Origin: Acidobacteriota bacterium
GTDB taxonomy: Bacteria; Acidobacteriota; Terriglobia; Terriglobales; Acidobacteriaceae
DNA: 64,000 bases
Assembly (NCBI GenBank): GCA_021846945.1
Contig: JAJZVZ010000007.1
Span: 1 to 64,000 of the forward strand
Direction of reading: 5' to 3'
Shown: positions 39,794 through 50,811 of the stretch, one piece after another
How the letters are laid out: each line of letters opens with the position of its first letter
Numbering within the stretch: the first letter of the stretch is position 1
Position numbers and translations under genes: made by a program
The notes under the pieces: generated by a model
Database searches by the model: none
The model's input: only the letters and a program-made list of their open reading frames with translations
What the model was told of the DNA's origin: nothing

Positions 39794-40672
39794 CTATTGC
39801 CGCTCGCGGCGGATGGTCTCCAGCAAGCGGCGGTCTTCTTCGCTGAGCGCGGCGCGTTCGAGCAGATCGGGCCGGTTGGCCAGCGTCTTGCGCAACTGCT
39901 GCTCGCGGCGCCAGCGGCGAATCTGCTGGTGATCGCCGTTGAGCAGGACCTCGGGCGCGCGCAGCCCGCCGAACTCCACCGGCCGCGTGTAGTGCGGATA
40001 ATCGAGCAGCCCGCCGGCGCCGTGCTGTGAGCGCGGCACGCCTTCCACGTCCGTGGCGATCTCGGCATCGGCCGCGCCAAAGCTCTCGAAGGCGCCGGAG
40101 GCCTCGTTGCCGAGCACGCCGGGAATCAGGCGCATCGTCGCATCCACCACCACCGCCGCCGCCAGTTCGCCCCCGCTCAGCACGTAGTCGCCGATCGAGA
40201 GCTCCATGTCGCAGTAGAGTTGGTTGATGCGCTCATCCACGCCCTCATAGCGTCCGCAGATCAGCACCACGCGGTCGAGCGCCGCCAACTCGCGGGCAAC
40301 GGCCTGAGTAAACGGTCGTCCCTGCGCCGAAAGAAGAATCACGCGGGTCTGTTGCGCGGAAGACAACTGCGCGGGTGCCCCATCCTTGCGCCGCTCCTCA
40401 GGCGCAAGGGTGGGAGCCGATGCCGCACGTTCCGCCTTGGGCGCAATGCCCAGCGCGGCCAGCGCCTCGGCCAGCGGCTCCGGCTTCAGAACCATCCCTT
40501 CGCCGCCGCCGAAGGGCCGGTCATCGACGGTGCGGTGCCGGTCGTGCGTGAACGCGCGCAAGTCGTGTACGTCCACCTTTACCCGTTCCTCGGCAATCGC
40601 GCGCCGCACGATGCCGTGCTCGAAGATGCCGGCAAAGAAGCCGGGGAAGATGGTGATGATCTCGAAGCGCAT
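39794..40672 (-). CDS. trmD: tRNA (guanine37-N1)-methyltransferase
   Basis: TrmD methylates G37 of tRNAs reading CNN codons and prevents frameshifts. Start at 40672 gives 292 residues beginning MRFEIITIFPGFF. The SPOUT knot motifs are PFGGGEGMVLKPEPL, ICGRYEGVDERI and YVLSGGELAAAVV, and the C-terminal helical domain ends VLLNGDHQQIRRWRRE. It is about 45 residues longer than usual because of an Ala/Glu/Lys-rich insert (residues about 90-125) after the substrate loop. Unlike in most bacteria, it is separated from rimM by a two-gene plus-strand cassette and no rplS follows. Confidence 0.96.
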   Translation of the reverse strand: MRFEIITIFPGFFAGIFEHGIVRRAIAEERVKVDVHDLRAFTHDRHRTVDDRPFGGGEGMVLKPEPLAEALAALGIAPKAERAASAPTLAPEERRKDGAPAQLSSAQQTRVILLSAQGRPFTQAVARELAALDRVVLICGRYEGVDERINQLYCDMELSIGDYVLSGGELAAAVVVDATMRLIPGVLGNEASGAFESFGAADAEIATDVEGVPRSQHGAGGLLDYPHYTRPVEFGGLRAPEVLLNGDHQQIRRWRREQQLRKTLANRPDLLERAALSEEDRRLLETIRRERQ

Positions 40673-40747
40673 ACCTTGCTCTGATGATATAGGCGAATTT
40701 TGATGATCCGGCGTTGCAGATGTGTGCTTTAATGTTTCCCAATCATC

Positions 40748-41953
40748 ATGGCTGATATTGAAACGTTGCTGAATCGCTGGCAGACGGCCGGCGCTTTGGA
40801 TGCAGCGGCGGCAGCCCGCATCCGCGCCTTCGAAGCTGCGCAGCGCCGTCCCGCAGGGTTGCGGTGGCAGGTGCTGGCGGCGCTCATTCTGGGGGCCATT
40901 CTGCTGGCTGGGGGCGTGGTGCTGTTCGTCTCCGCGCACTGGGACGAGATTGGACCCGGCTGGCGTTACGCACTGGTCATCGCGATGGTTGGCGTCTTCC
41001 ACCTGGGCGGCGGATGCGCACGGGAGAAGTTTCGCGGGCTTTCAACCGCACTGCACGCGGTGGGGACGGTGGCAACAGGCGCGGCCATTGCGCTGGTTGG
41101 CCAGATCTTCAACATTCAGGAGCACTGGCCGGCCGCTGTGCTGCTGTGGGCGGTGGCCGCTCTGGCCGGCTGGCTACTGCTCCGCGACCAGGCCCAGCAG
41201 ACGCTGGTGCTGCTGCTCGGGCCGGCGTGGATGCTCTCAGAGTTCGCGTTCTATCTGCGCGGCAGCGGCCCTGAGGGCCACATCGGCCAATGGGTCTACA
41301 TCGGCCGCTTTCTTTTCGTCTGGGCGATTTTGTATCTGACCTTCTTTCTGGGCTCGCGGCGCAAAGTGGCATACGGAATTCTTTTTGGCGGGGGAGCGAT
41401 CCTTGCGGTCATTGGGACCCTGCTGATGCTGGAGGGATGGAGCTCATGGTCGCCGATGCAGACCTTTGTGCCATTTGCGACGCGCTTCTGGGGCTGGATC
41501 GCCATTGGTGTTGTGCCGCTCGCTCTTACCGCATTCAGGGGCCGCAAGGAACTGCTTCCGATTGCGGCCGCCATCGGCTACGTTTTGGCGATGCCCTGGT
41601 GCCTTCGCGTTTGGAATGAGACCCACAGCACCTCTGATGGCCATCTCTGGATTGAAACCCACACCGGGCCGAATCTCCTGGCTTATCTGCTCGTTGCCGC
41701 CTTTTCCGTCTTCATCATCGGGTGGGGGGTACGTCGGCTGAGCGAGGCGCTGGTGAACCTTGGCGTGGTGGGTTTTGCGGTCGCCGTGGCGTGGTTCTAC
41801 TACAGCAATATCTACGACAAGGTGGGTCGATCGCTGGGGTTGATCGGGCTGGGCATCCTGTTTCTTGCCGGCGGACGGGCGCTTGAAGTCGCACGGCGAA
41901 AGCTGCTGGCGCGCATGGGCCAGGCGGAGACAGCGGTCGGGGAGACCAGATGA
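40748..41953 (+). CDS. DUF2157 membrane protein
   Basis: A 401-residue integral membrane protein with the DUF2157 N-terminal segment (LLNRWQTAGALDAAAAARIRAFE) followed by about ten hydrophobic helices from LAALILGAILLAGGVVLFVS onward. These proteins are unstudied; they are usually paired with a GDYXXLXY protein, as here, where the following gene overlaps by four bases (ATGA). It is divergent from trmD, whose start is 75 bases away. Confidence 0.85.
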   Translation: MADIETLLNRWQTAGALDAAAAARIRAFEAAQRRPAGLRWQVLAALILGAILLAGGVVLFVSAHWDEIGPGWRYALVIAMVGVFHLGGGCAREKFRGLSTALHAVGTVATGAAIALVGQIFNIQEHWPAAVLLWAVAALAGWLLLRDQAQQTLVLLLGPAWMLSEFAFYLRGSGPEGHIGQWVYIGRFLFVWAILYLTFFLGSRRKVAYGILFGGGAILAVIGTLLMLEGWSSWSPMQTFVPFATRFWGWIAIGVVPLALTAFRGRKELLPIAAAIGYVLAMPWCLRVWNETHSTSDGHLWIETHTGPNLLAYLLVAAFSVFIIGWGVRRLSEALVNLGVVGFAVAVAWFYYSNIYDKVGRSLGLIGLGILFLAGGRALEVARRKLLARMGQAETAVGETR

Positions 41954-42591: not shown

Positions 42592-43167
42592 CTATTCCCC
42601 TGCGTTCAGGTCCACAAGTCCTTCCGGCAGAGCCATCTCCACCCGCCCGGCCTCCAGGTCAATCTTCCGCAAATAGCTCCTGGCAAAGGGAATAAGAATT
42701 TCGCCACCTGCGCCGCCGCGGACCACCAGCAGCGCCACCGGTCCCGCCGTCCGGTCCACGTCCTCAATTTCGCCCACGCGCACCGGCGTTCCGCCAGCCA
42801 CATCCACCAGCGCGCAGCCGATCAGATCGCCGATGTAGGCCTCGTCGTCGGCCAGAGAGGCTCGCTCCGCGCGGGGAATCGCCACGATCATCCCCGCCAA
42901 CGCCTCGGCGTCACTGATCGAGCTCACCTTGGCAAAGTGCAGCACTATGCCGCCCTTGTGCAGCCAGTGCGCCACCAGCTCCACCTCGCGCGGAGCCGCG
43001 CCCTGCTCCGTGTCCTGTTCCATGCCCTCGGGCGGCAGCAGCCACAATCGCCGCCGCTGGGCAAATCTTTCAGGGAAATCGGTCAGAATCTCGGCGAGGA
43101 TCTCGCCTTTGCGGCCCTGAGGACGGCGGATCCGCGCCAAGCTCACCCATTGCGCCGGCACAGCCAT
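42592..43167 (-). CDS. rimM: 16S rRNA processing protein RimM
   Basis: RimM helps assemble the 30S head around S19. The 191-residue product shows the N-terminal beta-barrel (VSLARIRRPQGRKGEILAEIL), the typical AEALAGMIVAIPR segment, and the PRC-barrel with DLIGCALVD and the C-terminal LPEGLVDLN. It starts one base after the khpA stop. Confidence 0.94.
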   Translation of the reverse strand: MAVPAQWVSLARIRRPQGRKGEILAEILTDFPERFAQRRRLWLLPPEGMEQDTEQGAAPREVELVAHWLHKGGIVLHFAKVSSISDAEALAGMIVAIPRAERASLADDEAYIGDLIGCALVDVAGGTPVRVGEIEDVDRTAGPVALLVVRGGAGGEILIPFARSYLRKIDLEAGRVEMALPEGLVDLNAGE

Positions 43168-43168
43168 T

Positions 43169-43438
43169 CTACGTCTGGTCGTCTTCTTCCAGGATGTCCA
43201 GCGTGTAGCGGTGATGCAGCTTCATGCTCACGGCGCCCAGAATCGTGCGCATCGAGCGGGCGGTTCGCCCCTGCTTGCCGATCACTTTGCCCACGTCCTG
43301 CGGCGCCACCCGCAGCTTCAGGACGGTGTTCTCGTCCTTGTCCACGGATTCAACCGCAACCGCTGTCGGCTCATCCACCAAGGCCCGCGCAATTTCACGG
43401 ACCAACTCATCGACGGAGACCATATCTTGTTGGGTCAT
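43169..43438 (-). CDS. khpA: KH-domain RNA-binding protein KhpA
   Basis: An 89-residue KH-domain protein that binds RNA, usually with KhpB. The KH signature is VGKVIGKQGRTARSMRTIL (about residues 49-67), with the GxxG loop GKQG. ATG 43438 has AGGGG upstream; the ATG at 43423 is an alternative. It sits between rpsP and rimM, the standard place. Confidence 0.92.
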   Translation of the reverse strand: MTQQDMVSVDELVREIARALVDEPTAVAVESVDKDENTVLKLRVAPQDVGKVIGKQGRTARSMRTILGAVSMKLHHRYTLDILEEDDQT

Positions 43439-43581
43439 GTTCTTGCCCCTGACCTGATGCATTCAGATTTTGGCGACCGGAGTCTGTGCGCGAATAGTAG
43501 CAAAACCAGCCGCCGTCAGCAATTGTTGAGTGCGCTTAACAAAATCATCGGCGCACAAGCATCGGGAAGGAGCAGTAAGGA

Positions 43582-43848
43582 TCAGGCCGCGGCCGAGTCC
43601 GCAGCCGGAGCCTGCGCCGGGTGCTTTGCGATCAGCTTTTCAACGGTGGGCGTGCACTGCGCGCCCACGCCGCGCCAGTAGGCGATGCGCTCCTGCTTCA
43701 GGTCAACTGAAGCAGGGTTGGTGCGGGGGTTATACGTCCCGACCACCTCAATCGAGCGGCCGTTACGGGCACGGTCCTTCTCAATCACAACAATGCGGTA
43801 ATAGGGTTGTTTGCGGGCGCCAACACGCGCCAAACGAATCATGACCAC
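43582..43848 (-). CDS. rpsP: 30S ribosomal protein S16
   Basis: S16 binds 16S rRNA early in 30S assembly. The product reads MIRLARVGARKQPYYRIVV, then RNGRSIEVVGTYNPR, as in the family, with a short Ala-rich tail. The start is set at GTG 43848, which stands 11 bases after AGGA; the ATG two codons further (43842) is equally plausible by homology and 43869 less so. It heads the rpsP-khpA-rimM run. Confidence 0.93.
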   Translation of the reverse strand: MVMIRLARVGARKQPYYRIVVIEKDRARNGRSIEVVGTYNPRTNPASVDLKQERIAYWRGVGAQCTPTVEKLIAKHPAQAPAADSAAA

Positions 43849-44095
43849 GGCGTTACAGTTCCTTTCCAATCCAATACTCTGTTGCGGTCTTCAGGGTAAC
43901 TCCTGGCCGCCGCAGGCCCGCCGCGTCACGGCCGATCTGCCGCTGACGCCAAGGCGCCCTGACCCAGAAACGGCTGGACGCACCGGCCCAGCCTTACAGC
44001 CATTCACAAGACACAACTTCTACTAAGTATCGCTGAAACCGTGCCCTGGAGCAAGTTTCAGGATGTGGAATGCGGGGCGCGAGAGCAGGTAGCCA

Positions 44096-44671
44096 TCAGC
44101 CGGCCCGGCCGCCAAACTCCCGAGTCTCCGTGTGCACCTTCACCTTTTCGCCGTCTTCAACGTAAAGCGGGGCCTTGATCTCCAGCCCGGTCTCCAGCCG
44201 CGCCAGCTTGGTCACATTGCCGCTGGTGTCGCCGCGCGCGCCCGGCTCAGTATAGGCCACCTTCAGTTCCACCTGCGCCGGCAACTGCAGCCCGATGGGG
44301 TTGCCGTTGAACTTGTGCAACTGCACGATGGCGCCCTCCACCAGGAAGTCCAGTGCGTCGCCCATCATCTGGCTCGACAGCGAATGCGTCTCAAAGCTCT
44401 CCTGGTCCAGAAAGTACGAGCCGTCGGCGTCGCTGTAGAGGTACGAGGCCTCCACCGTCTCCAGGTCCGGCTCCTTGAACTTGTCGCTGGCCTTGAAGGT
44501 TTTGTCGAAGACGGCCCGCGTCAGCAGGTTGCGCATCTTCAGCCGCACCAGCGTCTGCCCGCCCCGCGCCGTGGGCGTGGAAACCTCCACATCCATGCAG
44601 TAGTAAGGGGTATTTTCAAACTCGAAGTACATCTTGCGCTTGACGTTAATGGCTTCAATCAATGCGGCCAT
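44096..44671 (-). CDS. Elongation factor P family, EfpL/YeiP-like loop
   Basis: A 191-residue three-domain EF-P-type protein that would relieve ribosomes stalled on prolines. The start at 44671 is preceded by GAGGA. The functional loop reads STPTARGGQTL. Canonical E. coli EF-P has PGKGQAF with the modified Lys34; the longer TARG loop instead matches E. coli YeiP (EfpL), which uses an unmodified Arg. The C-terminus FGGRAG also resembles YeiP. Domains II and III have SYLYSDADGSYFLDQE and GLQLPAQVELKVAYTEPGA. No modification enzyme genes are adjacent. Whether the genome also has a canonical efp cannot be seen here. Confidence 0.88.
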   Translation of the reverse strand: MAALIEAINVKRKMYFEFENTPYYCMDVEVSTPTARGGQTLVRLKMRNLLTRAVFDKTFKASDKFKEPDLETVEASYLYSDADGSYFLDQESFETHSLSSQMMGDALDFLVEGAIVQLHKFNGNPIGLQLPAQVELKVAYTEPGARGDTSGNVTKLARLETGLEIKAPLYVEDGEKVKVHTETREFGGRAG

Positions 44672-44788
44672 GCATTCCTCGGCAAAAAGGCAGAATCGGC
44701 GGCCGGAAATCTCCTCCGGCTCCTCATCAATTATAGGTTCCGGCGCCAAAGTTGACGCGCGCTCGTCCGCTCTGCGAGACTCACGCCC

Positions 44789-48142: not shown

Positions 48143-48519
48143 ATGTGCCTTGCCATTCCGGGAAGGGTCGAAGCAATCACCACGGACGGCCTCGTCCGTA
48201 TGGGCCGCGTGAACTTTGGCGGCGTGGTCAAGAACGTCTGCCTGGACTACGTGCCTGAAGTTGAGGTGGGCGACTACACGATTGTTCACGTGGGCTTTGC
48301 CATCTCGAAGATCGACGAGGAGACCGCCGAAAAGACCCTGGCCGACTTTCGCGCCATGGGCGTGCTCGACGAGGAGCTGGCCGGCGAGGAGGAAGCCTTT
48401 GCGCGTGCCGCCAGGGCCGCTCCTTCGCCTTGTCCCGACGGTAGCTGTTCTGTAGCTTCCCAGGTCCCAGAATCGGGACCTGGGGCACCCAATGTTTGTG
48501 GGGATGCAGGCATCGATAG

Positions 48520-48523
<4 letters not shown>
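48143..48523 (+). CDS. hypC: Hydrogenase maturation chaperone HypC, extended C-terminus
   Basis: HypC binds HypD and the hydrogenase large subunit during Fe(CN)2CO assembly; the essential N-terminal MCLAIPG with Cys2 is present. The standard OB-fold domain ends about residue 90. Residues 91-126 form an extra Cys/Pro/Ser-rich tail whose codons 106-117 are a copy of the dispersed hairpin repeat (48459-48494). The stop overlaps the hypD start by four bases. The tail may be a by-product of the repeat insertion and not needed for function. Confidence 0.92.
48459..48494 (+). repeat. Dispersed hairpin repeat, copy c, inside hypC
   Basis: CCCAGGTCCC, loop AGAATC, GGGACCTGGG: a perfect 10-bp stem followed by GCACCCAATG. 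It occupies codons 106-117 of hypC and lies 26 bases before the hypD start, so the mRNA hairpin sits at the hypC/hypD boundary. Confidence 0.8.
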
Positions 48524-49632
<1,109 letters not shown>

Positions 49633-49740
49633 CTTCATGCTTCTAAATCTCTGGCCGCATGATTTTGCAACTCGAGGTCGAGCTTCCCGGCGGCTGAAAG
49701 CTCACTTCGCGCGCAGCGCGAGGAAAGGAAGACCTGATCG

Positions 49741-50811
49741 ATGGAGGCTCCAAAGGCAGCGCCTGACTTTGCAAAGTGGATCTGTCCGCTGCCGCTGGCG
49801 GATTATCCCGCCATTGTGATGGGCCACGGCGGAGGCGGCAAACTCGGCAGCGAGCTGGTGGAGCATCTTTTTCTGCCCGCCTTCCGCAATCCCGCGCTTG
49901 AAAATCTCGGCGATGCCGCGGCGATCGACCTGCCGGCCGGCCGGCTGGCCCTCAGCACGGATTCTTTCGTCGTACAGCCTTTGTTTTTCCCGGGCGGCTC
50001 GATCGGCGAACTGGCCGTCAACGGCACGGTCAACGATCTGGCGGTTTCCGGCGCCGTGCCGAAGTTTCTCAGCGCCAGCTTCATCCTCGAAGAAGGATTC
50101 CCGCTGGCTCAACTGGCGGCAATCGTCGAGGCTATGGCGAAAGCGGCGGCTGTGGCCGGCGTGCAGATCGTCACGGGTGACACAAAGGTTGTCGAGCGCG
50201 GCCACGGCGACGGCTGCTACATCAATACCGCCGGCGTGGGGGTGCTGCGGGATAACGTTGCAATAGGCCCGCATCGCGCCCAGCCCGGCGATGCCGTGCT
50301 CATCTCCGGAACCATCGGCGACCACGGCATGGCGATCATGAGCGTGCGCGAAGGTATGGAGTTCGAAAGCCCCATCCGCTCGGATTGCGCGGCGATGAAC
50401 GGCCTGATTAGCGAAGTGCTGGATGCGGCGGGCACGGCGGTTCATGTGATGCGCGATCCCACGCGCGGTGGGCTGGGTTCAACGCTCAATGAGATTGCCT
50501 CAGCTTCCGATGCGGGCATTGAGATTGACGAAACCAGGCTGCCGGTGCGCGAAGAGGTGCAATCTGCCTGCGAACTGCTGGGCCTTGATCCGGTCTATGT
50601 GGCTAACGAGGGTAAAGTCGTCTTCGTTGTCGCGCCCAAGGCAGCGGAGCGCGTGCTTGAAGTTTTGCGCGCTCATCCGCTGGGCTGCGAAGCAGTGCGC
50701 ATCGGCCAGGTGACCGCGGCGCACAAACGCATGTTAGTTGCGCGCACTGCGATGGGCGCACAGCGTGTGATTCCTATGCAGATTGGTGAGCAGTTGCCGA
50801 GGATTTGCTAG
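49741..50811 (+). CDS. hypE: Carbamoyl dehydratase HypE
   Basis: HypE converts the carbamoyl group delivered by HypF to cyanide on its C-terminal cysteine. The 356-residue protein is of the AIR synthase/PurM type: GHGGGGKLGSELVE, the Asp-rich DSFVVQPLFFPGG, ATP-binding NDLAVSGAVPKFL and VMRDPTRGGLGSTLNE. It ends PRIC, with the essential terminal Cys356. The set hypCDE is complete; hypA, hypB, hypF and hydrogenase subunits are not seen in the window. Confidence 0.95.
   Translation: MEAPKAAPDFAKWICPLPLADYPAIVMGHGGGGKLGSELVEHLFLPAFRNPALENLGDAAAIDLPAGRLALSTDSFVVQPLFFPGGSIGELAVNGTVNDLAVSGAVPKFLSASFILEEGFPLAQLAAIVEAMAKAAAVAGVQIVTGDTKVVERGHGDGCYINTAGVGVLRDNVAIGPHRAQPGDAVLISGTIGDHGMAIMSVREGMEFESPIRSDCAAMNGLISEVLDAAGTAVHVMRDPTRGGLGSTLNEIASASDAGIEIDETRLPVREEVQSACELLGLDPVYVANEGKVVFVVAPKAAERVLEVLRAHPLGCEAVRIGQVTAAHKRMLVARTAMGAQRVIPMQIGEQLPRIC

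Follow-up and report, generated by a model that had tools for sequence, protein, structure and literature searches.

A probable acidobacterial branch of EfpL: an elongation factor P paralog with a nine-residue arginine loop

The 64,000-nucleotide stretch of acidobacterial DNA analyzed here (hereinafter, the window) encodes a paralog of elongation factor P (EF-P) that, with a probability of roughly 0.8, represents an acidobacterial branch of EfpL. This assignment rests on the gene itself, its domains, the loop length, the arginine at the loop tip, a conserved proline and the position in the phylogenetic tree. The EfpL family and its presence in Acidobacteria are already known, and the find, although genuine, is for the most part an ordinary one: Acidobacteria, Thermodesulfobacteria and the PVC group have been listed among the carriers of EfpL (Sieber et al., 2024; PMC11611912). 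Accordingly, of the initial annotation's view that an acidobacterial EfpL would be an informative novelty, the occurrence of the protein in an acidobacterium stands, and the argument for novelty, anticipated in print, is weak. What is added here is the extent of the family in Acidobacteriota, its misnaming by curated models, the nested position of Escherichia coli EfpL, the restricted distribution of the regulatory K51 site and a genome with three EF-P paralogs. The features of the gene are as follows.

44096–44671, minus strand: gene for an EfpL-type EF-P paralog of 191 amino acids (from the reading of the open reading frame, three Pfam domains and the tree)
44096–44098, minus strand: TGA stop codon of this gene (from the sequence)
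44676–44680, minus strand: Shine-Dalgarno-like GAGGA, five to nine bases upstream of the ATG (read from the sequence)
44552–44578, minus strand: nine-residue loop TPTARGGQT between strands beta3 and beta4, residues 32–40 (from the alignment and the structural model)
44564–44566, minus strand: CGG codon of Arg36, the loop tip (from the sequence, alignment and model)
44510–44512, minus strand: GTC codon of Val54, the residue that pairs in the alignment with Lys51, the regulatory lysine of E. coli EfpL (no gaps from the loop onward)

The open reading frame is complete: it starts with an ATG at 44671 and extends on the minus strand over 191 codons down to 44096. Its GC content (0.616) is close to that of the window (0.610). 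The Pfam domains EFP_N, EFP and Elong-fact-P_C each score above the cut-off, and no other Pfam domain was detected in the protein. An AlphaFold2 model based on an alignment of 70 sequences (mean pLDDT 90.5) matches ribosome-bound EF-P over the whole chain (6enj; Z 18.0, 188 residues) and E. coli EfpL with a lower score (8s8u; Z 15.9) and a large rmsd of 6.7. This large rmsd fits the tilted KOW domain of the E. coli EfpL structure, a tilt attributed to crystal packing in the original description (Sieber et al., 2024; PMC11611912).

The arginine loop, which the initial annotation had described as two residues longer than that of canonical EF-P, is indeed of this length. In the alignment of 113 proteins, the loop of the window protein exceeds that of every seven-residue EF-P by two columns, and in the model, strands 21–31 and 41–48 leave exactly nine loop residues, with R36 as the fifth and middle one (the confidence for this block is lower, pLDDT 77). 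Proline P33 lies three residues before the tip arginine. Among 276 distinct EF-P proteins, the motif P-[ST]-A-R-G is present in all 182 with a nine-residue loop and in none of those with seven-residue (0/78) or eight-residue (0/16) loops. The P-T-A-R-G form is kept in all 51 close orthologs that were read, among the 71 Acidobacteriota genomes that have one, so the loop is not a chance feature. In the definition of Sieber et al. (2024; PMC11611912), EfpL is marked by the length of its loop and an arginine tip; the window protein has only the three domains, a loop of more than seven residues, the arginine tip, the proline three positions before it and a place on the branch of E. coli EfpL. The gammaproteobacterial EfpL (YeiP in E. 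coli, PDB 8S8U) shares with it the three domains, the nine-residue loop, the P-T-A-R-G core, the arginine tip and the side of the tree, and the long-loop EF-P of Desulfuromonads and Verrucomicrobiota share the loop type and the branch. Canonical EF-P with a lysine or asparagine tip has the same fold and domains but a seven-residue loop and falls on the opposite side of the branch.

Among the alternatives, a modified tip survives best, although we consider it improbable: some enzyme different from EarP could modify the arginine, in which case the protein would be a modified arginine-type EF-P with a longer loop. Tip modification is common in the lysine-type and EarP-type EF-P (Sieber et al., 2024; PMC11611912), and the EarP-type proteins, with their rhamnosylated arginine, resemble the window protein in the arginine tip. 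They differ from it in having a seven-residue loop that lacks proline and has an S-G-R-N core. Neither the short proline-less arginine loop nor the earP gene that mark EarP-dependent EF-P was found in the window protein and its genome, respectively; the same search recovered EarP in both of the two records that carry earP. With the EpmA model, the genome yielded a single frame of 566 amino acids that scored 117–127 bits against a cut-off of 286.9 and is most simply a lysyl-tRNA synthetase. The failure to find EarP, together with that of any EpmA match to reach the cut-off, fits an unmodified arginine tip. The genome also encodes a deoxyhypusine-synthase-like protein, which could be counted in favor of a modified tip; this class of enzymes acts on lysine as far as is known. 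We considered this gene as the modifier of the arginine tip and found no reason for tying the two together. Furthermore, the long-loop loci share no common neighbor gene that would be a candidate for a dedicated modifier, and R33 of E. coli EfpL was shown by mass spectrometry to be unmodified (Sieber et al., 2024; PMC11611912). As judged from gene content, no known modifier in the genome fits the arginine tip, which probably needs no modification.

The genome of the window encodes three EF-P proteins: one of canonical length, the window protein and one with an eight-residue loop. The canonical-length efp for which the initial annotation had advised a search is thus present, along with an additional paralog. 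It has an asparagine tip (loop TPGNLRA; locus L001 on contig C316), whereas the EF-P that accompanies EfpL in E. coli has a lysylated lysine, and lies on a different contig from the window gene. The loop TPGNLRA is found in 21 of the 276 distinct EF-P proteins. The third gene, with the proline-less loop AGAAKMAG, is located as follows.

L003:1285–1866 (contig C102 of the same genome), minus strand: third EF-P gene, with an eight-residue loop that lacks proline

The third type (AGAAKMAG and its kin; L003, L119–L132 and L302) forms a group of its own in the 113-row tree (support 100/99) and is represented in 15 of 120 genomes of the window's family; one relative, L302, with the loop AGGGQQGS, is encoded on a conjugative plasmid of Paraburkholderia hospita. 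The structural model of the third protein also shows an eight-residue loop, with low confidence at residues 31–33. Adjoining this gene (L003:160–1285, minus strand) are the genes for an adenosine-specific kinase (PF04008) and a protein with an aminoacyl-tRNA editing domain (PF04073); within the fetched flanks, the kinase is found beside 5 of the 15 third-type loci and the editing protein beside 3. The aminoacyl-tRNA editing family includes prolyl-tRNA deacylases, and an editing protein of this kind would suit an EF-P-like partner. According to the survey data given by Sieber et al. (2024; PMC11611912), three EF-P-type proteins occur in only 6 of 4777 genomes. With their different loop types, the three paralogs form a natural set in which tip chemistries can be compared.

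For the main phylogenetic tree, 113 rows were hand-picked for spread from the 276 distinct proteins and analyzed under a mixture model after removal of the loop columns plus one flanking column at each end; the tree is unrooted. A first tree, of 133 rows, had been built with the loop columns kept in. In the 113-row tree, the 70 long-loop proteins with P-[ST]-A-R-G, among them E. coli EfpL, all fall on one side of a single branch (support 99/89). This side comprises Acidobacteriota, Desulfuromonads and other members of the phylum of genome G400, one Myxococcales record, Verrucomicrobiota and three gammaproteobacterial species. The window lineage is a group of its own (100/99), and a second group of acidobacterial proteins (100/100) joins it. 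The EfpL proteins of E. coli, Klebsiella and Proteus, which are the only three gammaproteobacterial EfpL sequences in the trees, are nested in a fully supported group (100/100) with Verrucomicrobiota proteins and one protein from the phylum of G400. In a tree of all 276 rows, computed under a simpler model without mixture, the nine-residue loop requires one change, and the long-loop branch has an SH-aLRT support of 91, with a warning of long branches from the program. With the long-loop proteins confined to one side of a branch and a single change in the loop extension, the window protein is assigned to the EfpL lineage, as the initial annotation had proposed from the resemblance to E. coli YeiP. 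On these trees, the nine-residue loop likely has a single origin, the direction of the change not being fixed by an unrooted topology. Three rows of EarP-type EF-P are placed apart from the long-loop group in the unrooted 113-row tree; a constraint holding the two together was not rejected (AU p 0.125), and EarP-type proteins appear as the sister group of EfpL in the published KOW-domain tree (Sieber et al., 2024; PMC11611912).

Under a second alternative, which is slightly less probable still than a modified tip, a duplicated acidobacterial canonical EF-P would have gained two loop residues and an arginine by convergence, so that it only resembles EfpL. Two observations are in line with convergence, namely, the assignment of the window protein to EF-P by NCBIfam and its raw identity, 33% with E. 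coli EF-P as against 29% with E. coli EfpL. However, the latter difference arises because the E. coli EfpL branch is long, and the raw identity misleads in the same direction as the name. A topology that unites the window lineage with acidobacterial canonical EF-P was rejected (AU p 0.024), the single branch that holds every long-loop row was recovered without the use of loop columns, and one change in loop length across 276 rows speaks against repeated extension. According to the initial annotation, the EfpL assignment would be contradicted if the protein fell within canonical EF-P and TARG loops were frequent in that group; the AU test points the other way, and none of the 94 proteins with shorter loops has a loop of this type.

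The membership in EfpL is not apparent from curated models. The window protein scores far under the cut-offs of the NCBIfam EfpL/YeiP equivalogs (143.1 of 216 bits for NF003392 and 125.2 of 264.05 bits for TIGR02178), which in effect describe the E. coli-like type of EfpL. It also misses the canonical EF-P equivalog TIGR00038 (184.4 of 185.8 bits), its loop being of nine rather than seven residues, and exceeds the cut-off of the general EF-P model NF001810 (191.1 bits against 161). With the EfpL/YeiP models missed and the general model scoring higher, annotation pipelines would name the protein plain EF-P. As proteins of this kind escape the curated EfpL models, a large acidobacterial EfpL lineage would for the most part be hidden under the name 'elongation factor P'.

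Close orthologs of the window protein (at least 248 bits, 63% identity) were identified in 71 of 297 Acidobacteriota genomes, and those of 51 genomes were read. Proteins with P-[ST]-A-R-G were found also in 12 further genomes at 46–52% identity, in 25 of the next 28 rows and in 1 of 20 lower-scoring rows (L113). Altogether, at least 109 of the 297 genomes carry a long-loop protein; this is a lower bound that includes the 20 close orthologs left unread. Of the 31 genomes sampled from the family to which the window belongs, 24 have a close ortholog, and none was found in G007, a genome of the same genus with an estimated completeness of 100%. In four draft genomes, G183 (99% complete), G003 (98%), G201 (84%) and G646 (completeness not given), the long-loop protein is the sole EF-P match; these bacteria may have no EF-P other than EfpL, although this state could reflect gaps in the drafts. 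A full-text search that combined EfpL with Acidobacteri found a single paper (PMC11611912), and the protein set of Volkwein et al. (2019; PMC6544042) leaves YeiP out.

By analogy with E. coli EfpL, the window protein would bind the ribosome and rescue XP(P)X stalls, with the tip Arg36 acting unmodified. Acylation of K51 inactivates E. coli EfpL (Sieber et al., 2024; PMC11611912). Because the corresponding residue is valine, the window protein would not be switched by acylation at this position. E. coli EfpL is acylated at four lysines, of which the window protein keeps only K57; K23 is replaced by methionine, K40 by arginine and K51 by valine. Among the 182 long-loop proteins, 25 have lysine in the K51 column, all of them gammaproteobacterial, Verrucomicrobiota or L256 sequences, and the other 94 EF-P proteins mostly have valine, methionine or leucine. 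The confinement of this lysine to an offshoot of 25 sequences makes the K51 switch look like a later addition in the offshoot to which the E. coli protein belongs. The window protein is a natural EfpL lacking K51 that can be used to test whether loop length alone makes an unmodified arginine work. Least probable of the alternatives is a diverged paralog that binds the ribosome without rescuing proline stalls, for instance, a regulator of translational pausing, which would suit the patchy distribution in the window's family and its own genus and the ability of E. coli EF-P and EfpL to induce pauses as well (PMC11611912), but hardly the invariant loop core of all close orthologs read or the presence of a long-loop protein as the only detected EF-P in four drafts.

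With the window protein taken as an EfpL, a broader scenario can be put forward tentatively, as one that may well prove wrong. The long-loop EF-P with an unmodified arginine would be an old factor present across Acidobacteriota, Desulfuromonads and Verrucomicrobiota, E. coli EfpL would have branched off late, probably by transfer, and acquired control by acylation at K51, and the long-loop protein would have replaced canonical EF-P in some bacteria. If true, this scenario reverses the view of EfpL as mainly a gammaproteobacterial helper.

The efpL-type gene lies about 240 bases upstream of rpsP-khpA-rimM, and the following neighbors were identified by domain matches.

42592–43869, minus strand: rpsP, a gene for a KhpA/B-type KH protein and rimM, downstream of efpL on the same strand
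39794–41002: trmD domain, further on from rimM
48143–50811, plus strand: hypC, hypD and a gene for a hypE-like AIRS protein in a row (hydrogenase maturation)

A link of efpL to the ribosomal operon was considered and rejected: when 217 long-loop entries (including duplicates, with flanks from 0 up to 2.5 kb long and longer ones in E. coli) were searched with tblastn, the window locus alone had any of the five neighbors, and the locus of a congener, L007, has none of them in the same search. Clustering of the flanking frames from 182 distinct entries showed that common neighbors are mostly confined to one group, largely of Holophagaceae records, and are not universal. At six loci from Desulfuromonads and related bacteria (L138, L139, L140, L142, L146 and L148), canonical efp adjoins the long-loop gene and is transcribed divergently, unlike the arrangement in the window's genome, where the two genes are on separate contigs.
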